NCBI GenBank assembly: GCA_018335855.1
Contig: JAGXRM010000010.1
Span: 124,001 to 188,000 of the forward strand
Length of the DNA: 64,000 bases
Direction: 5' to 3'
From: Clostridiales bacterium
GTDB lineage: Bacteria; Bacillota; Dethiobacteria; Dethiobacterales; Dethiobacteraceae
The notes beneath the pieces are model-generated. The model had not been told where the DNA came from, made no database searches, and was given only the letters and a program-made list of their open reading frames with translations. Numbering within the stretch: the first letter of the stretch is position 1; each line of letters opens with the position of its first letter. The translations under genes and the position numbers were made by a program. This document shows positions 7,761-28,566 of this stretch, piece after piece.

Positions 7761-7806
7761 AAAAAATAAGCCGTCCTTCTGCATGTGCGGGGGATGGCTT
7801 ATTTAT
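7759..7806 (-). terminator. Family C terminator repeat, copy 1
   Basis: On the minus strand the stem AATAAGCCATCC pairs with GGACGGCTTATT (one mismatch) and is followed by a run of T residues. Close copies lie at 10599-10650 and 21962-22018. This copy follows a short fragment that looks like the end of a DUF188 gene. It may also end the plus-strand beta-propeller transcript, although the T run on that side is short. Confidence 0.7.
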
Positions 7807-7876: not shown

Positions 7877-9277
7877 TCAGATTTTTTTGCCGGGATTCAG
7901 GATATTCTCCGGGTCGAAGACCTTTTTAATTTGCCTCATTATATCCTGTTCTTTTTCTGAAAACTGAAGAGACATATCCTTGCGCCGCAGCAGACCCACG
8001 CCGTGTTCGCCAGTGATGGTACCGCCCAGTTCCACAGCTATTTTATAAAATTCAGTCTTTAACTCCAGATAATAGTCGGGCAGCAGGTTGTTCTCCCTTA
8101 GAATAAAAGTATGAAGGTTGCCGTCGCCGGCGTGAGCCAGCAATGGTATCGTGGTATGGTAGCGGGCCGCCAGTTTATCCACTTCTTCTATGAATTCATT
8201 TAGCCTACTCCTGGGAACGGTAGCATCCATAACATCACAAACATCCTTTTCTATAGCCGGGAAGAGGTGACTCCTGATTTCCAGGATATTTCTCTGCTCT
8301 TTCTTTTCCTGAGCAATGATGGTGCTAATCATATTAAACTGGCTGCAGATTTCTTCTATGGCCATGCCTTTACTGTAAATGGATTCGTTGCTGTCCTCGG
8401 ACAGAACAATCATCAGGTCGGCAAAACCCTCTTTGGCAGGCCAAGTCTTATTCATGACCGCTGCAGTCCTCAATATCTGCTCTTTTTCAATATACTCCAG
8501 GGCAACAGGAATGATGCCTTCCTGAATAATTTTCGGCACCGCCGCAAAAGCGTCCTTGCGTGTCTTAAAAGATACAATCAAAGTCCCGCTCGCTTTGGAC
8601 TTGGGAACCAGGCGTAAAGTCGCCTTGGTGATAATACCCAGTGTCCCCTCGCTGCCTATAAAAAGATGCATTATGTCATAACCTGCATTGTTTTTGACCA
8701 GCTTACCGTCCCGTCCGCCCAGAGTAAGTATTTCACCTGTGGGAAGCACCACTTCCAGTCCTTTAACCTGGTCTCTCATCACACCGTAGCGGACAGCGTT
8801 TACACCACCGGCATTGGTGCTGACCATGCCGCCCACCTGGGCGCTTTCATCCCCTGGATGCAGGGGAAAGTAAAGCTTTTCATGCTGGCTGAACAGCTGC
8901 ACCAAGTCGTGGAGAGATACAGCGGGTTCACAGGTTATCATTAAATTCTCTTCATCCAGTTCCAGCACTTTATTCATTCTTTCCATCGATACAATAATGC
9001 TGGGTTCTGTAGGAATGGCGCCGGCTGCAATTCCGGTGCCTCCTCCGCGGGGAATTACAGGTATCTTTTTCTCTCCGGCATACTTCAGAAGCGCGGACAC
9101 CTCAGCAGTGTTTTCTGGTTTTACCACTATACACCCGTCTGCCGCCGGCTCAGGACAGATAAGCCTTAACGAATCAAAGGTATAATCCCTGGTGTAGCTG
9201 TAAATATCTTCGCTGTTATACAATACCCGGGAGTCTCCGAACATGTTTTGTAAAGCAGTTATTACTTCCTGGTCCAC
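7877..9277 (-). CDS. glcD: FAD-linked oxidase, GlcD / D-lactate dehydrogenase type
   Basis: The 466-residue protein has an N-terminal FAD_binding_4 domain with RGGGTGIAAG at about 77-86 (the PP-loop that holds the FAD pyrophosphate) and a C-terminal FAD-oxidase domain with HAGDGNLHTFI and GTITGEHGVG. Such enzymes oxidise D-2-hydroxyacids such as glycolate or D-lactate and pass electrons to a quinone, an ETF, or a GlcF-type iron-sulfur partner. No glcE, glcF or etf genes are adjacent. Upstream lie a broken TRAP transporter gene and a GntR regulator, a common setting for lactate or glycolate use. Which substrate is used is unknown. Confidence 0.88.
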   Translation of the reverse strand: MDQEVITALQNMFGDSRVLYNSEDIYSYTRDYTFDSLRLICPEPAADGCIVVKPENTAEVSALLKYAGEKKIPVIPRGGGTGIAAGAIPTEPSIIVSMERMNKVLELDEENLMITCEPAVSLHDLVQLFSQHEKLYFPLHPGDESAQVGGMVSTNAGGVNAVRYGVMRDQVKGLEVVLPTGEILTLGGRDGKLVKNNAGYDIMHLFIGSEGTLGIITKATLRLVPKSKASGTLIVSFKTRKDAFAAVPKIIQEGIIPVALEYIEKEQILRTAAVMNKTWPAKEGFADLMIVLSEDSNESIYSKGMAIEEICSQFNMISTIIAQEKKEQRNILEIRSHLFPAIEKDVCDVMDATVPRSRLNEFIEEVDKLAARYHTTIPLLAHAGDGNLHTFILRENNLLPDYYLELKTEFYKIAVELGGTITGEHGVGLLRRKDMSLQFSEKEQDIMRQIKKVFDPENILNPGKKI

Positions 9278-9319
9278 CTTTTAACACTCCTCAAACTATA
9301 TATTTGATAATACCTCTTC

Positions 9320-9900
9320 TTATTTAAGCAACTGCAAAATGATTAAAGAAATGCCAGGAGCATATGTGACCATTAAGAGGCTTACGATCATCGCGGCTAA
9401 AAAAGGAAGGGACGCCTTGCAGACTTTTTCTATTTTAGCGTTAGAAATATTTGAGGCAACATAAAGATTGATTCCCACTGGAGGCGTCGTTAACCCTATT
9501 GCCAGGTTCATAATCATGATGATACCGAAATGTACTTTATCAATGCCCAAATGCACGGCGATAGGGACTAAAATGGGCGTTAAAATAATTATGGCTGCGG
9601 CTGTTTCCATAAAAGTTCCAATGATAAGAAGCTATGGCCAAGGCGCCGGATAATCTGCCCGCGGCCATGTTGGCAAAATCAACTATCCGTCTTGAAATAC
9701 CTCCTGCAGCCATCAGGTTGCCGGCAAGGATAAAAAAAGGCACTGCCATCAGGGGAAAAGAATCGGTACCGCCAAACATGCGCTGTGGCACAAGGAGCAG
9801 ATTCTGCCCCTGTGACAAGAAAGCAAACACTGTTGCCAAACCAAGACTTGCTGCGATAGGGGTGCCGGCAATAAGTAAAACAACCAGCGAAACAAACAAA
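9320..9900 (-). pseudogene. dctM: Broken TRAP transporter large permease (DctM)
   Basis: Two minus-strand frames each match part of DctM. The upstream piece (9899 down to about 9630) covers the N-terminus (VVLLIAGTPIAASLGLATV) through GRLSGALA. The downstream piece (about 9630 to 9320) begins LLIIGTFMETAAAIIILTP and runs to the normal C-terminus. The intact protein is about 425 residues; the roughly 200 or more residues between these blocks are missing, and the join is out of frame. No start codon with a ribosome site is left at the 9900 end. The small and periplasmic TRAP subunits are absent. The gene cannot make a working permease. Confidence 0.85.
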
Positions 9901-10600: not shown

Positions 10601-10650
10601 AAAAATAAGCCGTCCTCCTGCAAGCAACATGCAAGGGGATGGCTTAGTTT
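10599..10650 (-). terminator. Family C terminator repeat, copy 2, end of the pilus locus
   Basis: This element is nearly identical over about 50 bases to the one at 21962-22018. It lies about 40 bases past the pilC stop. On the minus strand the stem is followed by a T run (TTATTTTTTTA), so it should end the pilus transcript. It also sits immediately after the convergent GntR gene and may act on both. Confidence 0.8.
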
Positions 10651-10690: not shown

Positions 10691-11773
10691 TTATTGAATG
10701 GAGTAACCTGACAGAATACCGCCAATCATCGCAGCGGCTACAAAACCAACTATACCGCCTAGGAAAACAAGGAGCAATGGTTCGAGCGACGCGTTCAGTT
10801 TTTTAATATAACTCTGGAGAATGGAGTAATGGATGTCGGCTATTCGTCCCATCGCCGCGTCCATTGTCCCGGTCTCCTCACCGACTTTTATCATGCTGCG
10901 TACCAGAGGCGGAAAAATGTTTGAGACTTTACGCATCGGTTCAGAAAGACTTTCTCCGAGGAGCACTCTACCGATACACAGGTCAATCGCCCGGCGTACC
11001 GCAGTGTTTTTATCCACATCCCGCACGGTCTTCAGGGCGTCAACGATAGTTACTCCGCTGCCGGTCAGTAAAAACATTGTTTTGGAGAATTGCACAATTA
11101 TGGAAGTCCGAATCAGAAAGCCAAACAGGGGAAGTTTCATTTTGATCAGGTCAATCCTGTAGCGCCCTTGTTTTGTCCTGTGTATGACAAGAAACATCAT
11201 GATGCAGGCTACCAGGGCCATGCCGATGTTTTTGATGTTCTTGGTGACAAAATTGGTCACGGAAATCAGTAGCTTGGTATTCCAAGGCAACTCGCCGCCC
11301 ATCATCTGTAAAAATGGAATAATCTGCGGAATAACAACCAGCACCATAAAGGCGAGTACACCCATGGTAGCGATGAATACAATGGCCGGATAAATCAGTG
11401 CCGTAGTCAACTCCCCGCGGAAAGTGCCCTGCTCTTCCATAAACTGGGCGATTTGTTGCAGGGAGGTGTCCAAAAGACCGCTTGTCTCCCCCACCCGGAT
11501 GGTGTTGCGGACGGCCAGGGGAAACACGCGGGGAAAACCATCCATAGCTTCGCTGAGCGATTTTCCCTGCTCCACTTCTAACCTGACGAGAGCCAAGGTA
11601 TGCTTGAACTTTCTGTTTGTCGTCTGCTCCTCCATAGTGACAAGACTGGGTACCAGCGGCAGGCCCGAAGCCACGAGAGCGGACAATTGTTTGAGCATCA
11701 GGATGATTTCGGCCTGCTTGATCCGTGTCATCCGTATCCGCAAACTACGCAGCACCGTCAAAAAACTGCTCAT
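10691..11773 (-). CDS. pilC: Type IV pilus assembly inner-membrane platform protein PilC (GspF family)
   Basis: The 360-residue protein has two T2SF (GspF) domains. The first covers about 25-145 (LSALVASGLPLVPSL ... TSGLLDTSLQQIAQFMEEQ) and the second about 215-340 (TGSGVTIVDALKT ... TGTMDAAMGRIADI). Hydrophobic segments near 125-150 and 175-195 and at the C-terminus (PLLLVFLGGIVGFVAAAMIGGI) cross the membrane. It forms the rotor platform with which PilB or PilT engages. The roughly 50-residue N-terminal extension seen in many PilC proteins is missing. The start overlaps a GGAGAGG ribosome site inside the end of pilB, six bases away. It is the last gene of the locus. Confidence 0.9.
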   Translation of the reverse strand: MSSFLTVLRSLRIRMTRIKQAEIILMLKQLSALVASGLPLVPSLVTMEEQTTNRKFKHTLALVRLEVEQGKSLSEAMDGFPRVFPLAVRNTIRVGETSGLLDTSLQQIAQFMEEQGTFRGELTTALIYPAIVFIATMGVLAFMVLVVIPQIIPFLQMMGGELPWNTKLLISVTNFVTKNIKNIGMALVACIMMFLVIHRTKQGRYRIDLIKMKLPLFGFLIRTSIIVQFSKTMFLLTGSGVTIVDALKTVRDVDKNTAVRRAIDLCIGRVLLGESLSEPMRKVSNIFPPLVRSMIKVGEETGTMDAAMGRIADIHYSILQSYIKKLNASLEPLLLVFLGGIVGFVAAAMIGGILSGYSIQ

Positions 11774-11779
11774 CTCCCT

Positions 11780-13420
11780 TTACCTCTCCGTGGTGGCGCT
11801 GAGCACTTCCGAGACGGAAGTAAGCCCTTTGCGAATTTTGATAATCCCATCATCCCGCAGTGTCCGCATCCCGTTTTTAATCGCGTACTCGCGGAGTGTT
11901 TCTGGATTCGCTTCCTGCGCCACTAATTTTTTGATTACGGCATCAATAACGAGCAATTCGTAAACACCAATTCTGCCCTTATATTTTAACCCGTTGCACG
12001 CGGGGCAGCCGGCAGCGGCGTAGAACGTTTCCTGACTGTCCGGTTCCAGCCCCAACGCTTGCAGTTCCTCCGACCCGGGCTTATACGGGCGTTTACAAGC
12101 CGGACAAAGCAACCTGACCAGTCGCTGCGCCAATACCGCGATAATCGTGGCGTTGATCAGAAACGCTTCACATCCCATATCAACTAAGCGGATTACGGCG
12201 CTGGTCGCGTCGTTGGTATGGAGCGTGGACAGGACAATATGTCCGGTCAGCGCAGCCTGCAAGGCGAGGCGTGCGGTCTCGCCATCCCGGATTTCTCCAA
12301 CCATGACGATGTCCGGATCCTGGCGCAGTATCGAGCGCAGCGCGCTCTGGAAACTGTTTTTCTGATCAACCTGCATCTGCGTGATTCCTTTGATAACCCG
12401 TTCCACAGGATCTTCGACGGTAATGATGTTCAACTCATCCGAGCACAGGAGGTTTAAAGCCGCGTAAAGCGTGGTTGTCTTGCCGCTGCCGGAAGGTCCG
12501 GTGGTGAGAAAAATCCCGTATGGCAGGGCGAGTACTTTGTACAACACTTCCAGGTGGTCCGGCTCAAAGCCCAGGTTTTCCAGCGTGGGTTCTTTTCTCG
12601 AAGCCTGCATCCGCAGGACCGCTTTCTCGCCAAAGATGCTGGGAACAGTAGAAACGCGCACGGACATGTTTAATGTTTCTCCATCCCCCTCGTACTGGAA
12701 TTTCAGGCCGCCGTCCTGCGCCGCGCGCTTTTCCGCGATATTCATCCCGGACATCACTTTCAGACGGGAAATGACCATATTGGCCACCCCTGGTGGCAAC
12801 AAGTCCACCGTCTTCAGGATGCCATCAATCCGAAACCGGATGCGTAAATGCTCCGGATACGGTTCAATATGAATATCTGACGCGCCGTAACCTGCCGCCT
12901 TATGCAGAATCTGCTCCACCATCTGCATCACGTCCGGTATACTGTCGGTCAACGCCGCCGGCAGCTCGGTGTGGGCCTGTGCAGCCGTTTCCGTGCCTTC
13001 ATACAGGCAGGTCATGGCCAGCGCCAGTTCTTCGGGCGGCATAAACACCGCACGAACCTGCCGGCCGGTTATCCTGCGGAGATTATCCGCCACAAGGCTC
13101 GGCAGGGAGCCGGAGGCGGCCACCACGAACGTGTTGCCGTCCAGCGTGACCGGGACGATATTCTGCTTGCGTGCCACATTGTGTGAAAGCAGGGTAATTG
13201 TTTCGGGGTCAGGTATAAAATCCTCCAGAGACAGATATTCCGTGCCAATAAATTCAGCCAGTAAAGTATTGAGCTGCCGTCCATTCAACACTCCCTGCCT
13301 GACCAGCAGTTGCCCAAGTGGTTCCTTGGTCTTTTGCTGGGTGCGCAGGACACTTTTCAACTCTTCAGAACTAATGACGCCACGTTGTAGAAGATATTCA
13401 CCCAGTCTCTGCTTCGCCAT
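11780..13420 (-). CDS. pilB: Type IV pilus extension ATPase PilB with MshEN domain
   Basis: The 546-residue protein is a GspE/PilB assembly ATPase. Residues 5-28 (RLG..L...G...... form) and 34-57 are two 24-residue MshEN motifs separated by exactly five residues, the layout known to bind cyclic di-GMP. The second motif has PLG instead of RLG and lacks the final Gln. The ATPase core shows SDIHIEP, Walker A GPSGSGKTTT (308-317), an Asp box (ITVEDPVE), Walker B (DPDIVMVGEIRD) and the His box. A C-terminal CxxC...CxxC zinc site follows (CPAC, CPAC). It powers pilin polymerisation. It starts two bases after the pilT stop with no strong ribosome site, so translation is probably coupled. Confidence 0.93.
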   Translation of the reverse strand: MAKQRLGEYLLQRGVISSEELKSVLRTQQKTKEPLGQLLVRQGVLNGRQLNTLLAEFIGTEYLSLEDFIPDPETITLLSHNVARKQNIVPVTLDGNTFVVAASGSLPSLVADNLRRITGRQVRAVFMPPEELALAMTCLYEGTETAAQAHTELPAALTDSIPDVMQMVEQILHKAAGYGASDIHIEPYPEHLRIRFRIDGILKTVDLLPPGVANMVISRLKVMSGMNIAEKRAAQDGGLKFQYEGDGETLNMSVRVSTVPSIFGEKAVLRMQASRKEPTLENLGFEPDHLEVLYKVLALPYGIFLTTGPSGSGKTTTLYAALNLLCSDELNIITVEDPVERVIKGITQMQVDQKNSFQSALRSILRQDPDIVMVGEIRDGETARLALQAALTGHIVLSTLHTNDATSAVIRLVDMGCEAFLINATIIAVLAQRLVRLLCPACKRPYKPGSEELQALGLEPDSQETFYAAAGCPACNGLKYKGRIGVYELLVIDAVIKKLVAQEANPETLREYAIKNGMRTLRDDGIIKIRKGLTSVSEVLSATTER

Positions 13421-13422
13421 TG

Positions 13423-14556
13423 TTATTGCGTGGCTCTAAGCCCATTACTCGACGGCTTCAGCTTACGCGCCTCGCTTTTCGGCGGCGTGCCTGTCAGGCG
13501 CTGGCGAATAAGATCCGGACTTTTCGCAGAATTGAGTGCTACGTCGAGGCTTATTTGGCTGGCGCGATAGAGTTCGACCAATGATTTTTCCATGGTCTGC
13601 ATGCCCAGCAAGGTACCGGTCTCGATAGACATGTAAATGTGTTCGGTTTTACCAATCCGAATCAGGTTGCTGATGGCCGGCGTTATAATCATCAGTTCGG
13701 AAGCCAGCACACGTCCGGGTTGGTCGACACGCGCTAATAGCTGCTGGGAAATGACAGCTTTCAGTGAAACGGAAAGCTGCTGCCGGATTTGCAATTGTTC
13801 TTCCGGAGGGAAAGCGCCGATGATCCGGTTAATGGATGAGGCAGCGTCTCGGGAATGCAGCGTGGAAAAGACCAGGTGGCCGGTCTCCGCCGCCATAATG
13901 GCTGTCCGGATGGTGTCCAGATCCCGCATCTCGCCGACCAGGATTACGTCCGGATCCGCCCGCAGCGCACCCCGCAGCGCGTCAGGAAAAGTAGGGACAT
14001 CGGAATACAGTTCGCGCTGGTTGATTATACTGTTTTTGGCGTAGTGGACATATTCGATAGGGTCCTCAATGGTAATGATGTTATGGCTGTAATTTGTGTT
14101 GACCAGGTCGATAATGGAAGCCAGCGTTGTGCTTTTACCGCTGCCGGTGGCGCCGGTTACCAGCACGAGACCCATTTTTAGGTTAGCCAGACTGGCCGCC
14201 GCCGGAGGCAGGCCAAGTGTATCAAGCGAGGGGATGCTGTCGGACAGCTTCCGGATCGCTCCGGAAAGGCAGCCCCGCTGGTAGTAGACATGTACCCGGT
14301 AGCGGCCGATATCTTTAAAGCTGACAGCGCAGTCCACCGAACGGCGTTCTTCCAGAACTCCTTGCTGTCCCGGCGTCAATAATTGATAAAGCAGCGTACG
14401 CGTTTCCTCGACGCTCAGCGCGGGCAGATCCAGAGATACCAGGCCACCGTTCGTCCGCAGCACCGGTGGCACACACGTACCGATATGGATGTCCGAGGCG
14501 TTGCAAAGATTAGCTCTCTGCAGCAGGGAAAGAATTGAAAGTTTGCCGGCGTCCAT
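13423..14556 (-). CDS. pilT: Type IV pilus retraction ATPase PilT
   Basis: The 377-residue product shows the PilT set: ASDIHI near the N-terminus, Walker A GATGSGKST (135-143), ITIEDPIEY, Walker B region DPDVILVGEMRD, and the His box STLHSRDA. The family's C-terminal AIRAGT-like region appears as LIRIGKTEHIYMSIETG. PilT disassembles the pilus and generates twitching force. The last 25 residues are a basic, disordered tail (TPPKSEARKLKPSSNG), longer than usual. A GAGGAGG site precedes the ATG. Presence of PilT next to PilB argues for a dynamic pilus rather than a one-way pseudopilus. Confidence 0.93.
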   Translation of the reverse strand: MDAGKLSILSLLQRANLCNASDIHIGTCVPPVLRTNGGLVSLDLPALSVEETRTLLYQLLTPGQQGVLEERRSVDCAVSFKDIGRYRVHVYYQRGCLSGAIRKLSDSIPSLDTLGLPPAAASLANLKMGLVLVTGATGSGKSTTLASIIDLVNTNYSHNIITIEDPIEYVHYAKNSIINQRELYSDVPTFPDALRGALRADPDVILVGEMRDLDTIRTAIMAAETGHLVFSTLHSRDAASSINRIIGAFPPEEQLQIRQQLSVSLKAVISQQLLARVDQPGRVLASELMIITPAISNLIRIGKTEHIYMSIETGTLLGMQTMEKSLVELYRASQISLDVALNSAKSPDLIRQRLTGTPPKSEARKLKPSSNGLRATQ

Positions 14557-14574
14557 TAACGTGCCTCCTCTTTT

Positions 14575-15231
14575 TTAGAGAATTAGTTTTAATGATAGGT
14601 CATATTCCCCGACTTCAGGCTTTTTATCCTTGCTTTTTTGCTCTATGATATTAACACGCAGTTTATTGACACGCACCAGCCATGTCGCCTCCGCCATTTC
14701 CCCCATAAAACCGGTTAGCCCTGACTGACTGCCGCTAACTGCCAGCGTGTATTCCTGCCAACCGAAACGTTCTCTTACAGTGGGTGGTTCTGTTTCCACG
14801 CGAGCACGGGTATTCCGGCGGCGGGCACTGCGCGGCACTTGCGGTTCTTTGCCCAGCTCATAGATGAGCTTGTCGTATTTCAGCTGCTTGACCGACAAAG
14901 AGTTGTTGGCTGCCAGCTGATCAAAGAGAGCCATCGCTTCCGTCACCGCAGGGTCGGTGTCTGCTTTGGCGGTAGCTCGGATTTCCTCCAGCTCTTCTTG
15001 CAGATATTCAATTTCTTCTTTAATAAAATCTATTGTTTCCTTTGCCTCTGTTGTGTCCGGCGGAACACCTCCCTGTCTGTCAATTTCACTCTGAACAAGC
15101 TGAATTTGATTTTCAACTGCTGCCAGCGCCTGTCGCGCCGGGTCGTAGACCCAGGTCAGGTAGCCATAAAAACATGCCGCCATTAAAACTGCCGCCAGGC
15201 CATACGTTTCGAGCTTACTAAGCTTCTTCAT
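14575..15231 (-). CDS. pilO: PilO-like pilus alignment protein
   Basis: The 218-residue protein has one N-terminal membrane helix (LAAVLMAACFYGYLTWVY, about 12-29), a coiled coil (about 35-90, rich in Glu and Leu) and a small C-terminal alpha/beta domain, the layout of PilO. In the pilus machine PilO pairs with PilN and links the cytoplasmic PilM ring to the outer parts. Sequence identity to classical PilO is low, so the assignment rests on architecture and on position directly after the PilM-PilN fusion gene. A basic stretch (RSARRRNTRARVE, near 135-147) interrupts the C-terminal domain. Confidence 0.72.
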   Translation of the reverse strand: MKKLSKLETYGLAAVLMAACFYGYLTWVYDPARQALAAVENQIQLVQSEIDRQGGVPPDTTEAKETIDFIKEEIEYLQEELEEIRATAKADTDPAVTEAMALFDQLAANNSLSVKQLKYDKLIYELGKEPQVPRSARRRNTRARVETEPPTVRERFGWQEYTLAVSGSQSGLTGFMGEMAEATWLVRVNKLRVNIIEQKSKDKKPEVGEYDLSLKLIL

Positions 15232-15248
15232 TGCAGTCCTCCATCCGA

Positions 15249-16976
15249 CTATAACTCTAACTCTAACTCCAGCTCATCACCTTCAACTTCAAATGGTCGC
15301 TCCGGCAGAAACTCCGGCTTGAGTACAACCCTGATTTTAAACTGGTAGACAATTACCGTCTTCAATTGAGAAGCAGTGTCGTCCCCGAAATCGTCAAAAC
15401 CGGACTCATCATCGCCAAACAGCTCTGCGCCTGGTGCCAGGCCAGCCTCCGGGGCTGTGCCGCCCGCGCCATTATCGTCATAGCCAAAGTCATCACCAAA
15501 GTCATCACCAAAGTCATAGCCAAAGTCATCAAAATCTGAGTCGATACTTTTTTCCACACGCACTATCCGCAATATTTCATCCACTTTTGCATAGATGCAC
15601 CACTCTTCGTCCTGCAGAGCCAGCGCCAAGGCGTGGATTGCGCTGGTATTGCGGCTCTCTCCGCTAAGCGTGAAATAGTCCGTCTTTTCCTCCAGTTCGA
15701 TGGTAAAGTATTTCAGACCCGGCTGTGCTCCCTGCTCCAGCGCTGACAGCGTGGCATACAGCAGCTGGTTATATTCCGGCAGCCGGTTTTGCAGATATTC
15801 TACCTGGGAATAAAGCAGGAGCTTTTCTTCCTTTAGTTCATCAGCCTTATTTTCCAACTCCTGTAACCGGGTGGCGGCTGCCGTTATAGAGTCTCTCTGC
15901 CGCACCAAAACGGTAAGTTCCCCGTCTGTCACCTTGATCTGCCGCCGGATTATCAGGAAGTGGACGCCGAAGATGAGAAAAAAGAGCAGCAGAATGACGA
16001 TAGGCGCGAAATATGCTTTCTCTGCCAGTTGCCTGAATAGAGACAGCTCGTCGCTTACACCAAGGGCGCGGCTTTTTACATACGGGTACCACAGCTCCCG
16101 TAAGCCGGCACCCACCACAGTTGCATACTCCGGCCCCCGCTTTGCGGCGGTAACTATATTTCCCGTCGGGATAATGAGAGAGCTTACCTCGGCGTTAAAG
16201 CTGGCACGTAAAAAACAGAGGATATCCTCTTCCAACCCGCCCGCGCCGGTGATTGTTACTGAGGCGGCGGCGGCCTCGACATCAAAAGGTTCGCCATAGG
16301 CCAGTTCCGCCCACACGCTGCAAGTCGTCAATTCGGCTTTAAGCTGCTCGAGACTGACCGGCACCGTCCTGTAAGAGACCATGCGGCCTCGGTGTATTAA
16401 GGCGAAGCGCACCGCCTCTGTGCCCACGTCAATGACCAGCTGCTTCTCTTTTGGCTGCCCTCCAGCCAGCAGTGAGACCGGTGCAGTAAAGCAGACATCG
16501 GGAGGGTAAACCCGTTTGAGCCGCAGCTCGCTTTCCGCCAGCAATTCTTTCCATTGCTGGTAGTCTGCCGCCGGAAAGCTGGACACCCAGAAACCCTCAT
16601 GTTCCGCGTCGGCATCCGAGCCGTGTTCGAAACCTATCAGCGATTCCTCGGCCGGTATCCCGGTATACATTTCACTCTCTGCCTGCAACAACTCTTTTAA
16701 TTTATGTGGCTTGAAACGGAGACTTTTAACCAGTTTCTTTTCCACCGGCACACGTATTAAGACTACACGCGGCGTGACAACCACAATCTGCTGCGGGCAG
16801 TTAGTGATTTTCGCCATAATCATCGCCAGTTCGTCCCGGCTGATTGGTTCATTCTCATCTTCGGTGCGATCAATGGTTTCACAATGAGCTAATTCGAATT
16901 TTTTCAGACTCTTTCTAGTCACCACAGCGCACCGGATTACCGGGCCGTCAAGTTCCAGTGCTAGGACGGATAACAA
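15249..16976 (-). CDS. PilM-PilN fusion protein
   Basis: The 575-residue protein joins two pilus parts usually made separately. Residues 1-300 look like the actin-like PilM/GspL cytoplasmic domain (VLALELDGPVIRCAV, VIDVGTEAVRFALI). One membrane helix follows (about 323-343, FAPIVILLLFFLIFGVHFLI), then a coiled coil (350-395) and a PilN-like domain (about 400-480). An acidic insert near 478-500 is built from GDDF/GYDF units encoded by 12-base tandem repeats, and a second acidic, Gly-rich stretch follows before the C-terminus. There is no in-frame ATG near the start; a TTG at 16974-16976 with GGAG upstream is the best choice. I assign the halves by fold pattern and position. Confidence 0.75.
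   Translation of the reverse strand: MLSVLALELDGPVIRCAVVTRKSLKKFELAHCETIDRTEDENEPISRDELAMIMAKITNCPQQIVVVTPRVVLIRVPVEKKLVKSLRFKPHKLKELLQAESEMYTGIPAEESLIGFEHGSDADAEHEGFWVSSFPAADYQQWKELLAESELRLKRVYPPDVCFTAPVSLLAGGQPKEKQLVIDVGTEAVRFALIHRGRMVSYRTVPVSLEQLKAELTTCSVWAELAYGEPFDVEAAAASVTITGAGGLEEDILCFLRASFNAEVSSLIIPTGNIVTAAKRGPEYATVVGAGLRELWYPYVKSRALGVSDELSLFRQLAEKAYFAPIVILLLFFLIFGVHFLIIRRQIKVTDGELTVLVRQRDSITAAATRLQELENKADELKEEKLLLYSQVEYLQNRLPEYNQLLYATLSALEQGAQPGLKYFTIELEEKTDYFTLSGESRNTSAIHALALALQDEEWCIYAKVDEILRIVRVEKSIDSDFDDFGYDFGDDFGDDFGYDDNGAGGTAPEAGLAPGAELFGDDESGFDDFGDDTASQLKTVIVYQFKIRVVLKPEFLPERPFEVEGDELELELEL
15477..15533 (-). repeat. Tandem 12-base repeat inside the PilM-PilN gene
   Basis: Four units of the form GTCATxxCCAAA (plus strand) lie head to tail and encode alternating GDDF and GYDF. 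Two adjacent units are identical. The tract keeps the reading frame, so copy-number change would add or remove four residues without disrupting the protein. Confidence 0.8.
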
Positions 16977-17002
16977 AGCAGACCATCTCCGTTTCTCTGC
17001 CT

Positions 17003-18601
17003 TTACTCGATAATCAGCGTAATTGCTCCTTCTTCGGCGGTCACTGTACCGGCCGGGCTAATGAACACCCCTGTATAGTCTACCCGTTCCAGGTCATTCC
17101 AGGACGAGTTCAATTCAACTAGTTCCAGAAAACGATAACCCGCGGAAGATCGCGGCACAGCCAGATTGAACTGCCAGCTATTCCCCCATTTTGCGCCCTC
17201 TACCGTCCGGCCGTACACAAACATCTCCACTGTGGGCTGGACGGCCGGGCTGGCATGGAGGCGCACCCTAAGCGGCAGGTCTTCAGCCGTTTCGTTAACC
17301 ACCTTGCCGCGTACGCTAACTTCCTGCCGGACATCCCAACCGCGTAAAATATCAATTGACAGATCGTCCAACGAGGGATCTTCTGCCGAATGAAACATCC
17401 CGTCGGGACCGGCACTGGTTATGGTCAGCATTTGCTCCGGCGGCGGGTCGGCCCCGGCGTGGGACAGCCGGAAACGCAGCATCGTGCCCCAGGGATCCCG
17501 CAGTACTTCATTCTCACCTGTACCCATGGGTTTTTCATAATAAGAGCCGCGCCACCCGAAACCGAGCAACACGAAACCGGCTGTCGAGGGATCCGGCGGA
17601 TTAGGCAGGTCAACACTTCCGTCGCCGTCTACATCCTGTGTCCAAAGCCCCCGCGGCTGGCCTTCGAGTACGCCGTCGACGGCTGTAGCCATCTCCCATT
17701 TCCCCTGCCAAACCCAAAGTGTCGGCCACAATCCGTGGTCACCCACATACCCGCCCAAGATCGGGCGGCCAAGACGGTCAGTTATCCCCCGTTTCCCAAC
17801 CAGCGCTTCCCGCAGGCTTAGGAGCTGGCGCTTCGCCTCCGTCATGCGCGTGTCATCCTGCCACTCCTCCGGAGTGATGGCAAGCACGAGGTTGTCGCCG
17901 TTGAATTCAAAGTCTTTGTCATATGCCGGATGACTGCTTCGCATGTCCGCTCCTTCGCTGACAATGTATAATGTGGCGTCAGGCGTCGCGACGCGCAGGT
18001 GGTTGCCGGAACCGTCCAGATAATAAAACAGCAGTGACCTGCCCCAGGCGTCCGCTAGTTTTCCTTCCGTCTGGCGCATTTCAAATTCCCCGTTTATATC
18101 GTATTCTGTGGCCGTCTGCGGCAACTCCACCCAGGTCAGGTGGTCTGCGTTAGCGGGAAATTCGTCCAACGGGTAAGCAAGGTACGGTCCCTGCCACCGC
18201 GGCCCGCGGTCTTCACCGGGTGCCGGCACCGCTTGCCACAGCCCCCTTGGCTGTCCAAACCCAAATTCGTAGTAAACACCTTCATCTTCATCCGCGTCAA
18301 CGCTCCACTCCCAAACTTCGAAAACCGGATTCCAACGGGCCCGGTAGAGTTCGGGAAGCCTGCCCATATCCCCCAGATAACCCCGCAGGGCACGGCGCCC
18401 TTCCGTGTCAAAGGAATCTCGCGGTCCGAGCATCGCCGTACGGATGGACTCCAGCCGCCGCTGCGTCTCTTTGACTTTCTGCAGCGCCTGCACCCGGCCC
18501 GCCAGGGGCACAGCCATCATCACAAACATACTCAGAATAGCGATTACAACAATGACTTCCAGCAGGCTGAAACCCTGTTCCCGCAGGCGATATTGTCTCA
18601 T
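17003..18601 (-). CDS. Large pseudopilin with duplicated GspG-like module
   Basis: The 532-residue protein starts with a type III leader: a short basic peptide, cleavage G10/F11, and the helix FSLLEVIVVIAILSMFVMM with Glu at +5. Two related modules follow, about 40-230 and 258-440. Each has a helix (RRLESIRTAM, then QLLSLREALV), a G-[GR]-Y-[LV]-GD block, GQPRGLW, WQGPYL or WRGSYY, a D-x-WG block, and a closing Ser-Glu-Gly or Ser-Ala-Gly-Pro-Asp-Gly turn like the GspG calcium loop. The C-terminal 85 residues form a separate beta-rich domain. Ordinary pseudopilins are 130-200 residues, so this is a tandem duplicate with an added head. It likely sits at the tip of the pilus. Identity of the partner cargo is unknown. 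Confidence 0.8.
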   Translation of the reverse strand: MRQYRLREQGFSLLEVIVVIAILSMFVMMAVPLAGRVQALQKVKETQRRLESIRTAMLGPRDSFDTEGRRALRGYLGDMGRLPELYRARWNPVFEVWEWSVDADEDEGVYYEFGFGQPRGLWQAVPAPGEDRGPRWQGPYLAYPLDEFPANADHLTWVELPQTATEYDINGEFEMRQTEGKLADAWGRSLLFYYLDGSGNHLRVATPDATLYIVSEGADMRSSHPAYDKDFEFNGDNLVLAITPEEWQDDTRMTEAKRQLLSLREALVGKRGITDRLGRPILGGYVGDHGLWPTLWVWQGKWEMATAVDGVLEGQPRGLWTQDVDGDGSVDLPNPPDPSTAGFVLLGFGWRGSYYEKPMGTGENEVLRDPWGTMLRFRLSHAGADPPPEQMLTITSAGPDGMFHSAEDPSLDDLSIDILRGWDVRQEVSVRGKVVNETAEDLPLRVRLHASPAVQPTVEMFVYGRTVEGAKWGNSWQFNLAVPRSSAGYRFLELVELNSSWNDLERVDYTGVFISPAGTVTAEEGAITLIIE

Positions 18602-18737
18602 TGAACGGACAGTCTCCTTTTGCGAATCAGGCTTACGCTGACATTAATTATAAAAAATATATTCGTTGCGGCAAACCGTTATCCTCCCGCTTTGGGGAGT
18701 TAACAGAAAGATAACCCTGGCATAACCTCTTTTTAGC

Positions 18738-18774
18738 ATAAACAAGCGGGAAAGGGTTGCCCCTTCCCGCTTGT
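18738..18774 (-). terminator. Hairpin between the two pseudopilin genes
   Basis: The stem ACAAGCGGGAA pairs with TTCCCGCTTGT (minus strand shown in both arms by symmetry), with a small loop. The T run after it on the minus strand is short (TGTTTATG). It lies in the 189-base gap after the smaller pseudopilin gene and probably attenuates rather than stops transcription, letting the upstream genes be made in excess. Confidence 0.65.
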
Positions 18775-18790
18775 GTTCCCGGACTAACTC

Positions 18791-19726
18791 TTATCCTTCT
18801 TCGATGCTATTGATAAGCCACAGAGCCGCCTTCGGATAAATCACGCCCTCCGGGCTTACCACGGCAAAGTTGTGCGAAGGCTGCGCTTCCTCGAGGGAAA
18901 CCACCTTTACTTCACCGTTTTCGTTGGATACGTCAACACTGAAAATGGGAATTTCACGGTCATACTCGCCATTCACGGTAGCAGCCAGGCGCGGCAGAAC
19001 CAGCAGGTAATTGTTATAGATGTAATTGTCGTTGTTGCCGCCGCGCGGGCTCACCGCGGAACCCTGCAGCTGTCCGGAAGTAATCAATTCGTTGTCTTTG
19101 CCAAAGCCAAGCACGATGCGGAAGAAAAGGTCGGGGTCAACGATACTGTCACTGGTATTGATGTCATGTTCCCAACCGAAGCCTAAGTCAAAACCGGCGC
19201 CGATCATCAGTACAGCCACACCCTCTGCCACTTCAACTTCCTGCAGGTGGGGTTGGGTGGATTCGGGGCCAACGTATTTTTCATCCATGGCGATGCTGGG
19301 ATTCAGGTTGCGGACTTTCGTCACGCCCATTCTTCTCAGTTCGGTCGCTTCATCATCGCTCAGGTAGTGAAGACGCAGGGGCAGCACTTCCTCCAACTCA
19401 GCGGAAAATATTTCTTTGCCGTCAGTCGGGTCGTTATTGCTGAAGTTCGGAATGCTGTAGATCTCGTCCCCTTCCTCAACTATCAGGTTTGTCATGCCGC
19501 TCGGCAGCCGGCCCAACCTTTCATTGAACAGCGCCGTTGTTGTAGCAAGGCGCTGCATATTGGAATCGTCCACGCTCCTGCCGGCACCGGCCACCACGCC
19601 TGCCAGGCGGGGGGCAATCATCGCCACCAGGAAGCCCATAATAGCCAGCACTACGACCAGTTCCAGCAAGGAAAAACCCTTGTTGCCGGAAAGAATACTT
19701 CTGACCTTTTTAACTAGACGTTTCAC
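18791..19726 (-). CDS. Prepilin-type protein, 311 residues
   Basis: The leader MKRLVKKVRSILSGNKG is followed by FSLLELVVVLAIMGFLVAMIAP, a type IV pilin signal with cleavage G17/F18 and Glu at +5. The rest (about 270 residues) has no Cys pair and no clear match to a named pilin; it contains several acidic loops. The gene uses a GTG start at 19724-19726 with AGGAGTGGG upstream. It lies 37 bases after the PstS-like gene and ahead of an attenuating hairpin, the place where an abundant pilin would be expected. It is larger than a normal major pilin, so I cannot say whether it is the main subunit or a minor one. Confidence 0.8.
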   Translation of the reverse strand: MKRLVKKVRSILSGNKGFSLLELVVVLAIMGFLVAMIAPRLAGVVAGAGRSVDDSNMQRLATTTALFNERLGRLPSGMTNLIVEEGDEIYSIPNFSNNDPTDGKEIFSAELEEVLPLRLHYLSDDEATELRRMGVTKVRNLNPSIAMDEKYVGPESTQPHLQEVEVAEGVAVLMIGAGFDLGFGWEHDINTSDSIVDPDLFFRIVLGFGKDNELITSGQLQGSAVSPRGGNNDNYIYNNYLLVLPRLAATVNGEYDREIPIFSVDVSNENGEVKVVSLEEAQPSHNFAVVSPEGVIYPKAALWLINSIEEG

Positions 19727-19763
19727 GTTATCCCACTCCTTTATTTTTTAGTTTATTAAATTA

Positions 19764-21533
19764 TTATTTAATTGTATCGAGCATTTTGGCCACGTGGAGC
19801 TTCAAGTTGGGCGTAATCGGAGTATAGTTCCTGTTCATTGCGTGCTCGTCGCCAAACCCTTCAACAACCGCCCATCTGACAAAATCCTTAATCACTGTGG
19901 CGCTTTGCTGCTGTTCGGCAAGGGTAATCGGTTTGCCTTCTGCCGCAACGGCGCTGGTAGTGCCGTCAAGGGCAGGGCGGCTCACAACAGTAGGAGTAGT
20001 ACCTCCGATTGAATCAAAGTCAGGCTTGGCCACGGAGGCATCCTTTTCCACAATCAGCCAGGTGAAGCCGGTAATCGGGTAGGCACCGGCGCCACGGCCG
20101 TTAACCGGATGGGAGTACATGTCTTTGTGCGTAATGCCGGCGGCAAAAACGGCGGCGCTGAGCGGTGTGACGAAGTTGCCGGCGCGGTTTCTCACTCTCG
20201 CTGTACCAATGTTGTCATGGCCTGCAACGTCACCATAGCTCACATAGCCGATGGGGTAACTCGCCAATCCGGAAGCGCCGCTGTGGCCTTTGATGTAGTC
20301 ACGAATCCCGCTGCCGCCTGCAATGTCTTTCCGCCTGCTGTAAGGTATGGTGCCGGGGCTTGTCTCGCCGTCCGCTAAATAACCGCAGACATCACCCATT
20401 TTGGTTGTAACACCATATTTTTCGGCCCATACACGGCTGACACTTCTCAGGTAGGTGGCGAAAATCTCAGTGGTCCCGCTGGCATCCTGACGGTAGACAA
20501 CCTGAATGTCCGCGTTGGGCAGCTGTGCGTTGGGGTTCAGTGCAGTGATGCGCCGATCGTTCCACTTGCTGATTTTGCCCATGTAGATGTCAGCGATGAC
20601 CTGCGGGGTCAGGCGCAGTTCGGGGTTGCCGGGCAGCTTGTAATTAACGGCAACACCGCCCATCGCCACCGGGATAATCGCGTAGAAATTCCGGTCACCC
20701 ACCGGGATGTCGGTGATGGAATCGGAACCGCCAAAGTGGGCCTGGCGGGCACGCACGGCGTCAATGCCGGCGCCGGAACCTGTCGACCCGCCGCCAAACA
20801 TTGCCGTGACGGCGCTGCCGTCAATGTTGTAGCTGTTATAGCCCAGGTCAAACGGGCCGGTTCCTGTCAGCTTCGAGTTTTCGAGATCCTGGGAGGCATT
20901 TTTGTAAAGCTCGATCCAGGCGTTCGCTGGGTTGGTGCTTCCAGAGACGACTCTGCCGTAGAGCGAGTTGGCGAAAGTCGCGCCGCGACCGATCATCCTG
21001 GCGTTGTCGACAGCAGGCACGACGTCCCGTTTGTCGGTACCGGTGAACGCAAAAGCTGCATTCGGCGGTGTTGTGCGGGGCAGAGAGGCAGTCGTAGCGC
21101 CAGAGAAAGAGCCGCCCAACAGTTTAATCACATCGTTGAAGGGCACAAAGATTTGGGCGTCGCCACCGCGGCCGATTGTGCGCGGCTGGGCGGAGAGCGC
21201 CACAGTCTTGATAGAAGGCGATTTAGTGCCCACGCCGGTGGTCAGGAAGGCGACACGGGAACCGCTGACAAGGTAAAGGACTTTGTCAACATACTTGATC
21301 TCCAAGAAATCAACGCCCACTCTCTTGCCGCATAAGGCAGTTGAATTTAACACGTTACCTAATGCTTCACCTTTGACCAAGCGGGCTTTGCCGACGATCC
21401 TCGCTTCCACTGTTGTGCCGTTGAGCGTAACGTTTTGTGTATTTGCCTGGGCGGGGAACGCACCAATCATTAGAAATGCCATGGCAACGATGAGCAGACT
21501 TGCAATCAGCTTGACATTAAACCTTTTGTACAT
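19764..21533 (-). CDS. Secreted PstS-like binding protein with N-terminal copper-amine-oxidase-like domain
   Basis: The 589-residue product has a signal peptide ending AQA near residue 30. Residues 35-145 resemble the Cu_amine_oxidN stalk-type domain (ending IFVPFNDVIKLLGGSF). Residues about 180-585 match periplasmic phosphate-binding proteins of the PstS type: GSTGSGAGIDA (249-259), GGSDSI, IYMGKISKWND and YRQDASGTTEIF. There is no lipobox, so it is released or held by other means. No pst permease genes follow. Instead it is the first gene of the pilus locus, 37 bases before a prepilin gene. I infer that it is either exported by, or displayed on, the pilus. AAAGGAGG precedes the ATG. Confidence 0.8.
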   Translation of the reverse strand: MYKRFNVKLIASLLIVAMAFLMIGAFPAQANTQNVTLNGTTVEARIVGKARLVKGEALGNVLNSTALCGKRVGVDFLEIKYVDKVLYLVSGSRVAFLTTGVGTKSPSIKTVALSAQPRTIGRGGDAQIFVPFNDVIKLLGGSFSGATTASLPRTTPPNAAFAFTGTDKRDVVPAVDNARMIGRGATFANSLYGRVVSGSTNPANAWIELYKNASQDLENSKLTGTGPFDLGYNSYNIDGSAVTAMFGGGSTGSGAGIDAVRARQAHFGGSDSITDIPVGDRNFYAIIPVAMGGVAVNYKLPGNPELRLTPQVIADIYMGKISKWNDRRITALNPNAQLPNADIQVVYRQDASGTTEIFATYLRSVSRVWAEKYGVTTKMGDVCGYLADGETSPGTIPYSRRKDIAGGSGIRDYIKGHSGASGLASYPIGYVSYGDVAGHDNIGTARVRNRAGNFVTPLSAAVFAAGITHKDMYSHPVNGRGAGAYPITGFTWLIVEKDASVAKPDFDSIGGTTPTVVSRPALDGTTSAVAAEGKPITLAEQQQSATVIKDFVRWAVVEGFGDEHAMNRNYTPITPNLKLHVAKMLDTIK

Positions 21534-22015
21534 TTTTCAATTCCTCCTTTTCGAATTATACAGAATAATTGTTTTCGTCCGTCGTGCTGTCATCCTTGAT
21601 ACCAACACGCCCCGTAATTGTTTAATGCGCATCACTGGCCAGCTTCCGCTGTAGCACCACCCCTCTCGCTGAATTTTTGACCGCAGATGAAGTGCTTAAT
21701 GGCATGTTCAACTGTGCAAAAGGATGTTTCATGAAGTATAACGCCACACTTCTAAGCAGAGTATAGCACTCGAATATTAACGCCATACGCGTTTCGTGTT
21801 AATCAAGATTAACTTTTGACTACAGCTTGCTAAACTCTTTGTTAAAATAACTACTCAGGTTCCCACTGCCTAGCCCTGACCGGGACGAAGCGGATCTGCT
21901 CTTTCGCCGGTTTCCAGAGCGGATACAGGCAGTAATAGGACAGTTCGTTCTTCCGAAGTTGCAAAAAAAAATAAGCCGTCCTCCTGCAAGCAACATGCAA
22001 GGGGATGGCTTATTT
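21534..22015. other. Long gap upstream of the pilus locus
   Basis: These 482 bases hold no intact gene. The right end carries a family C terminator and a possible transposase scrap. The rest should contain the promoter and leader of the pilus locus. I looked for a cyclic-di-GMP riboswitch and found no convincing match. A TGCTATACT word near 21757-21765 (minus strand) could be an extended -10 element, but no good -35 element accompanies it. Confidence 0.5.
21855..21960 (-). pseudogene. Possible transposase fragment
   Basis: A short minus-strand frame ending in TAG reads LSYYCLYPLWKPAKEQIRFV followed by a few more residues. The pattern YxCLxxLWKPxxxxIRFV resembles a stretch of DDE-type transposases that I recall from Firmicutes, but the piece is only about 35 codons and has no start. 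Confidence is low. Confidence 0.25.
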
Positions 22016-28200: not shown

Positions 28201-28237
28201 AAAAAAAGGCATTTCCGGTATTAACCGGAAATGCCTT
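28201..28237 (-). terminator. Terminator of the cold shock gene
   Basis: On the minus strand the stem GGCATTTCCGGT pairs perfectly with ACCGGAAATGCC across a 4-base loop and is followed by seven T residues. It starts 15 bases past the csp stop codon. Confidence 0.92.
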
Positions 28238-28251
28238 CAGTTTAATTTGAT

Positions 28252-28449
28252 TTATATGCGAGTAACGTTGGCCGCTTGGGGACCACGGTTGCCTTCAACA
28301 ACATCAAATTCAACTTCTTGACCTTCTTCTAAGGTCTTAAAGCCTTCACTCTGGATAGCGGAGAAATGTACGAATACATCTTCACCATCATTTTTCTCGA
28401 TGAAACCGAAACCTTTTTCTGCATTAAACCATTTTACTTTTCCTTGCAT
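28252..28449 (-). CDS. cspA: Cold shock protein, CspA family
   Basis: The 65-residue protein is a single cold shock domain: [18 protein letters not shown] carries RNP1 (KGFGFI), and DVFVHFSAI carries RNP2. It binds single-stranded RNA and DNA as a chaperone. TTTTTAGGAGGCAAC precedes the ATG. A clear sigma-A promoter lies about 115 bases upstream, so the transcript has the long untranslated leader typical of cold shock genes. It is monocistronic with its own strong terminator. Confidence 0.96.
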
Positions 28450-28566
28450 TTTGTTGCCTCCTAAAAATAATTTGAATCAAAAAGAGGAATAACGTCAAAA
28501 CCTTTCATCGTTGCCATTCAATGTCTTAGTCGTTCGATCGTTCTCTTCTTTTTAACACTAGTAGTA

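Follow-up and report, generated by a model that had tools for sequence, protein, structure and literature searches.

The window, the whole stretch of 64,000 nucleotides analysed here, carries on its minus strand eight open reading frames that run from 21533 down to 10691 in the order PBP (a PstS-like protein), P311, P532, PilM-PilN fusion, PilO, PilT, PilB and PilC. An earlier note had read the same gene set from the DNA, and all eight frames were recovered with the same coordinates and sizes. The features of the locus, in the direction of reading, are as follows.

21967..22011, minus strand: 45-bp terminator-like element lying 5' of the cassette and following a YaiI/YqxD-family gene; identical to the 10601-10645 copy
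21760..21812, minus strand: Pho-box-like promoter, with TTAATC, TTAACA and TTAATA at +0, +10 and +32 and a -10 box, TATACT, at +47
21534..21753, minus strand: PBP 5' leader, about 220 nt; no Rfam match
19764..21533, minus strand: PBP, secreted PstS-like phosphate-binding protein, 589 aa (PBP_like_2, 3e-18; PDB PstS matches)
18791..19726, minus strand: P311, prepilin, 311 aa (N_methyl; family alignment; model pLDDT 73)
18742..18774, minus strand: strong hairpin 3' of P311, terminator or mRNA stabiliser (z -4.1)
17003..18601, minus strand: P532, prepilin, 532 aa (GspG-like domain in two tandem copies; C-terminal beta-sandwich)
15249..16976, minus strand: PilM-PilN fusion (GspL-like), 575 aa
14575..15231, minus strand: PilO-like protein (GspM-like), 218 aa (hhalign)
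13423..14556, minus strand: PilT-type retraction ATPase, 377 aa (TIGR01420, 428.9 bits, cut-off 319.1)
11780..13420, minus strand: PilB-type assembly ATPase with a c-di-GMP-binding MshEN domain, 546 aa (T2SSE, 5e-119; MshEN, 4e-13)
10691..11773, minus strand: PilC platform protein, 360 aa (T2SSF, 2e-50)
10601..10645, minus strand: 45-bp terminator-like element on the 3' side of the cassette; same sequence as the 21967-22011 copy

PBP and P311 are separated by 37 bp in the window and by approximately 25-40 bp in all four loci in which PBP is found. P311 is followed directly by a hairpin in the same four loci (z -4.1 in the window and -3.5 to -6.6 in the others), and in the window the hairpin and a gap of 189 bp lie between P311 and P532, the remaining genes being closely spaced. 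The short junction and the hairpin closing after P311 suggest that PBP and P311 form a two-gene unit. The position of the hairpin suggests that the two would be co-produced at higher levels than the motor genes, as one would expect for a structural subunit and the protein that works with it.

The host genome (2.96 Mb, 99.5% complete) contains other loci of both kinds. An ordinary type IV pilus (T4P) cluster on contig C11 encodes PilB, PilT, PilC, PilM, PilN, PilO, an A24 prepilin peptidase and small pilins, and a full pstSCAB-phoU-phoPR operon, the PstS of which is a lipoprotein, is present on contig C54. Two claims of the earlier note must therefore be narrowed. The absence of a prepilin peptidase holds for the locus but not for the genome, in which the A24 enzyme of the separate T4P cluster (L029:7448-8185) supplies the peptidase that the type IV filament superfamily requires; likewise, the absence of a pst permease is a property of the locus only, given the complete operon on C54. 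The lipoprotein PstS and its operon also rule out PBP as the sole PstS of the genome. Given the separate T4P cluster and the separate pst operon, the locus adds one more machine and one more phosphate-type binding protein to the genome. A tandem pair of T2SSF proteins, Tad-like by layout, was also observed on C54 (G000:C54:29235-30623) and probably represents a Tad-type pilus, which would bring the type IV filament systems of the genome to three. A search of nine cassette-bearing genomes detected its positive controls but no secretin, and the cassette machine is of the monoderm type.

Against curated models of pili and type II secretion systems (T2SS) the PilB-type ATPase scored 514.5 bits for GspE and 510.4 bits for PilB, both under the cut-off, and its c-di-GMP motif (NF053729) scored 50.3 bits, above the cut-off of 38. 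The PilM-PilN fusion itself gave no strong family match; for its N-terminal part hhalign gave an alignment to the PilM of the host itself (89.6%, E 1.9e-6), and Pfam PilN matches were obtained in two of five homologues (best 2.6e-5). The PilO-like protein was aligned with the host's own PilO with an E-value of 1.2e-4 and a probability of 55% (hhalign).

Only two prepilins, of 311 and 532 aa, are present in the locus, in agreement with the earlier claim that a small major pilin is missing from it. P311 has its cleavage site after G17 with Glu at +5 and is the candidate for the main filament subunit. Its model, of moderate confidence (pLDDT 73), shows a pilin helix joined to a large head; Foldseek returned no significant match to this model, and the best row in a comparison with solved structures was a type IVb pilin with a Z of only 3.2. 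P532 contains a tandem duplicated domain (repeat 1 against repeat 2: BLAST 6e-10; hhalign 99.5%, 1.5e-22), each copy of which shows a weak match, of low probability (E 0.002-0.008), to the DxWG...SAGPDG end of E. coli GspG. The last 105 residues of P532 resemble a beta-sandwich (Z up to 8.1), although the model itself is weak (pLDDT 60.6, pTM 0.44) and a match was obtained for its C-terminal sandwich only; on that model the sandwich may resemble sugar-binding modules, a likeness that is not a functional claim. In the UBA911 genome, a draft MAG of 1.5 Mb that may be incomplete, P311 and P532 were the only N_methyl prepilins found, together with a single PilC.

The N-terminus of PBP is a Sec signal peptide with neither a lipobox nor a prepilin motif. 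The protein scored 167.9 bits against the PstS model TIGR00975, under the cut-off of 205. All nine phosphate ligands of PstS, which we take to be T10, F11, S38, D56, R135, D137, S139, G140 and T141 in E. coli numbering, are kept in the window PBP as T186, F187, S253, D271, R348, D350, S352, G353 and T354. In the PBP of 'Ca. Formimonas warabiya' Ser replaces T10 and Glu replaces D137, both conservative changes. Unlike the PstS of pst operons, the cassette PBPs possess an extra N-terminal domain and loops of their own; an identification of this domain with the copper-amine-oxidase-N domain of the family's canonical PstS was unsupported (hhalign probability 1%). In a tree the Formimonas PBP groups with the cassette PBPs and a second PstS type of the window's family and not with the PstS of the Formimonas pst operon at L086 (100/100). 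As PBP has a Sec signal and lacks a pilin-like N-terminus or a known anchor, its sequence gives no proof of attachment to a filament.

Further evidence for a phosphate role comes from the DNA upstream of PBP, which in the window reads TTAATCTTGATTAACACGAAACGCGTATGGCGTTAATATTCGAGTGCTATACT. Each of the four PBP loci has a Pho-box-like promoter 279-310 bp upstream of the gene, with a common layout of TTAAC, TTAACA at +10, TTAACA at +32 and TATAAT at +47. PHO boxes are defined by an 11-nt direct-repeat layout (PMC4415409), and direct repeats of this type, the sequence criterion for the Pho regulon, are present at the PBP promoter. Consensus scores at the four loci were 20, 20, 23 and 21 of 23, with shuffles scoring 17 or less; the window promoter agrees at 20 of 23 positions and its own shuffles reached at most 15. 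The promoter of the window genome's own pstS scores 23/23, with one additional base separating its first and second repeats. No Pho box was found before four PBP-less cassettes, where scores of 12-13 were the same as those of shuffles, nor, except in the genome G003, between P311 and P532, ahead of P532 and the motor genes. In G003 a partial duplication of the hairpin and the P532 N-terminus lies before PilMN (L066:14600-15130) and has its own Pho-box-like site, scoring 23/23.

The exact 53-bp pattern TTWAY-N5-TTAAYA-N16-TTWAYA-N9-TATAMT occurs at one site in each of the four genomes (14.5 Mb), always at PBP. As the pattern was built on these four sites, finding it at them is partly circular; its uniqueness is free of this circularity. 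The reversed control pattern gave no sites in the same genomes. An 11-bp version fitted to pstS, searched in eight genomes with one mismatch or fewer, gave seven sites, which lie at pstS in four genomes, at pstB-phoU in one, near a pst operon in Formimonas and inside the pilus cassette of G003. A Pho-box-like site with one mismatch lies at L086:8510-8563, before an uncharacterised 239-aa gene (8603-9322) beside a Formimonas pst operon. The PBP promoter looks like a phosphate-starvation switch under predicted PhoP control, and it provides separate support for a phosphate role of the cassette. The 5' leader of PBP measures approximately 215-260 nt in all four loci (window, L065, L066 and L067), far longer than the leader of the same genome's pstS. 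Rfam gave no match to a known RNA in the leader region of the window PBP or in two PBP leaders, and alignment of the four leaders revealed no convincing conserved element. Elsewhere in the window, 28205-28526 (minus strand) matches the Rfam cspA thermoregulator with 86.8 bits.

The cassette was found in nine further genomes, in one of which only the first gene is present, at a contig end, and this recurrence indicates that the arrangement is more than chance. The seven-gene machine recurs in distant Bacillota, mostly in the same order. Full-length matches to P311 were obtained in three of 98 genomes of the class (the window genome, G003 and G017), and a P311 scan of 84,980 species genomes, which was seeded with short peptides and biased toward close relatives, identified 'Ca. 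Formimonas warabiya', HKB214 (G003), CROMO_A_128 (G017), an 'Armatimonadetes' MAG, UBA911 and MAG.313. A search with P532 among 398 genomes drawn evenly from the phylum added G445, G464 and G559; among 149 relatives of Formimonas, P532 was found in Formimonas itself only. The order P311-P532-PilMN-PilO-PilT-PilB-PilC is retained where contigs permit, with some genes inserted, and no PilO was recognised in the G464 cassette.

PBP lies immediately 5' of P311 in the window genome, G003 and G017 (two sister genera) and in Formimonas, and is absent from the cassettes of UBA911, HOT.MB2.58, MAG.313, G445, G464 and G559. The earlier note had regarded a pairing of the PstS-like gene with pilus genes in one genome only as fatal to its proposal; the co-occurrence search instead places the linkage in four genera of two lineages. 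In trees of PilB and PilT, which left out the motors of G017, the cassette proteins fall into a single clade that excludes the T4P proteins of those genomes, and within it the members with PBP make up one subclade with 100% support. On these trees a single gain or loss of PBP by the machine is probable, with the gene retained ever since, and the linkage persists in Formimonas though its PBP is only 36% identical to that of the window. The six cassettes without PBP indicate that it is an add-on of one subclade, outside the core machine, and the persistence of the machine in those genomes that its core task is not PBP-specific.

Other genes were observed in the PBP-less cassettes. A polytopic protein, judged by eye to be O-antigen-ligase-like and without a Pfam match, is encoded between P311 and P532 (L069:10226-11512, L094:8347-9555, L095:12387-13646 and L068:11052-13940), in L068 within a single open frame of 962 aa shared with P532; it is possible that this is a pilin glycosylation enzyme. 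A conserved small protein of approximately 75-120 aa, also without a Pfam match, precedes P311 (L068:9236-9595, L069:8438-8695, L094:6832-7077 and L095:14934-15155) and has the motif 'HTNEMVLAKI..LYE..FRHDGFGE..VE.R.LKRGQKEV.IHCGKQYR'. Two of these cassettes have an uncharacterised protein of about 280 aa between PilB and PilC (L068:18947-19777 and L094:16197-17048), the L094 copy of which gave no Pfam match.

The window cassette has a G+C content of 54% against 47-49% in its flanks, and the one congener examined has neither P311 nor PBP. It is bracketed by the two identical 45-bp elements, a third and diverged copy of which is found at 7765-7800; these are the three copies in the genome and all lie within 14.3 kb. 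The bracketing elements are a possible insertion footprint and, together with the G+C contrast and the absence from the congener, fit acquisition of the cassette by transfer.

The reading that we prefer, with a probability of roughly one half, is that the locus encodes a second type IV filament machine, dedicated and without a secretin, which would be induced by phosphate starvation and would work with the secreted PBP. It starts from what can be read in the DNA, namely the gene content, the PBP linkage, the Pho-type promoter, the phosphate site, the cassette's own motor set and the lack of a secretin. PhoP would activate the Pho-box promoter, giving a PBP-P311 transcript, and the prepilin peptidase encoded in the T4P locus would process P311. 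PilB, PilC and a GspL/GspM-like platform of PilMN and PilO would then polymerise P311 and P532 into a filament, or a short pseudopilus, which PilT could retract. The co-made PBP would contact the filament and act with it on the cell surface, where it would hold inorganic phosphate at the thick wall or beyond it; the separate PstSCAB transporter would receive this phosphate for uptake. For a machine with PilT in a cell without a secretin, display on or beside the filament would be the simplest use. A more specific form of this proposal, a 'phosphate bindosome' in which a starvation-induced, two-pilin, secretin-less filament carries the PstS-like protein beyond the wall and PilT retraction brings the phosphate back, is put forward tentatively.

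The known roles of type IV filaments are motility, adhesion, DNA uptake and protein export. If the preferred reading is true, nutrient capture would be added to these, by a small machine of two prepilins and a fused PilMN without a secretin, and it would be shown how a thick-walled cell might gather phosphate beyond its wall. One carrier of the cassette, 'Ca. Formimonas warabiya' DCMF, has been brought into laboratory culture, which makes the idea testable. A text search of the literature, covering few subscription journals, returned no description of a system in which PstS works with type IV pili or pseudopilins, and the main text of the Formimonas metaproteome paper mentions neither pilins nor phosphate.

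Among the alternatives the best surviving is a monoderm T2SS-like piston, in which P532, P311, the GspL/GspM-like platform and the ATPases would push folded PBP through the wall or S-layer and out into the medium during phosphate starvation. The PilMN fusion equals the GspL arrangement (PMC4471445) and P532 has GspG-like domains, but the locus lacks a minor set of the GspH/I/J/K kind, the nine genomes lack a secretin, and PilT, usually missing from the T2SS (PMC6668835), is present. PBP has the plain Sec signal of T2SS substrates, and in Caulobacter the export of ElpS via the T2SS is triggered by phosphate starvation (PMC2996285); a monoderm cell, however, has no obvious need of a piston to release a Sec substrate, and the machine also exists in cassettes without PBP. 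We consider such an exporter unlikely.

It is also conceivable, and in our view rather doubtful, that PBP and a pilus for adhesion or motility under starvation share one promoter without touching. PBP is missing from six cassettes, as a shared regulon would allow, yet where it occurs its linkage survives deep divergence, and the short PBP-P311 junction and the hairpin after P311 in all four loci suggest a two-gene unit. Adhesion is a common function of type IV pili and would suit the resemblance, on the weak model, of the P532 C-terminal domain to sugar-binding sandwiches; the N-terminal domain and loops that set cassette PBPs apart from pst-operon PstS argue against mere co-regulation. That the locus is an ordinary minor-pilin or accessory set of the C11 T4P beside an unrelated neighbour gene, an objection raised in the earlier note, is very improbable: its premise of a normal T4P locus elsewhere, with a small major pilin and in this case a peptidase, stands, but the cassette has its own PilB, PilC, PilT, PilMN and PilO in a separate clade, no further N_methyl prepilin or PilC was found in the draft MAG UBA911, and the PBP linkage is conserved.

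By its components, which are prepilins with class III signals, a PilB-type ATPase and a PilC-type platform, the cassette belongs to the type IV filament superfamily. Within it, on gene content, the cassette is T4aP-like but without the small major pilin and minor set. The T4aP of Firmicutes are known as a monoderm type without a secretin (PMC6668835) and share with the cassette a PilB with MshEN, PilT, PilC, homologues of PilM, PilN and PilO, class III prepilins with Glu5 and the secretin-less state (PMC6668835). The cassette differs from them in its fused PilM-PilN, in the two oversized prepilins that replace the small major pilin and minor set, and in its PstS-like leader gene, its Pho-type promoter and the lack of a peptidase in the locus. 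No PilA-type major pilin or pilE/fimT-type minor pilins are present in the locus, small pilins being found only in other loci of the genome.

With the T2SS (GspE/F/G/L/M) the cassette shares a GspL-like PilMN, a GspM-like PilO, the GspG-like domains of P532 and an adjoining secreted protein of phosphate type, but it has PilT, has no secretin and has no recognised GspC/H/I/J/K. PilT likewise separates it from the monoderm Com pilus (ComGC/GD/GE/GF/GG, no PilT), and ComG pilin models match the cassette prepilins at the shared N-terminus only. PBP resembles the PstS of PstSCAB in fold family, phosphate-binding residues and Pho-box-like promoter, and differs in its cassette-specific N-terminal domain and loops, in the adjoining pilin gene and in the absence of PstCAB from the locus. 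Caulobacter ElpS is comparable as a phosphate-starvation protein exported by a machine of the type IV filament family (PMC2996285); that system, however, is diderm, its substrate is a lipoprotein not described as PstS-like, and its T2SS has a full gsp set (PMC2996285). The Sulfolobus bindosome (Bas) is alike as an idea, being a type IV filament machine that serves surface solute-binding proteins (PMC4471445, PMC6711533), but it is archaeal and handles sugar with binding proteins that carry class III signals, whereas PBP has a Sec signal and would bind phosphate.
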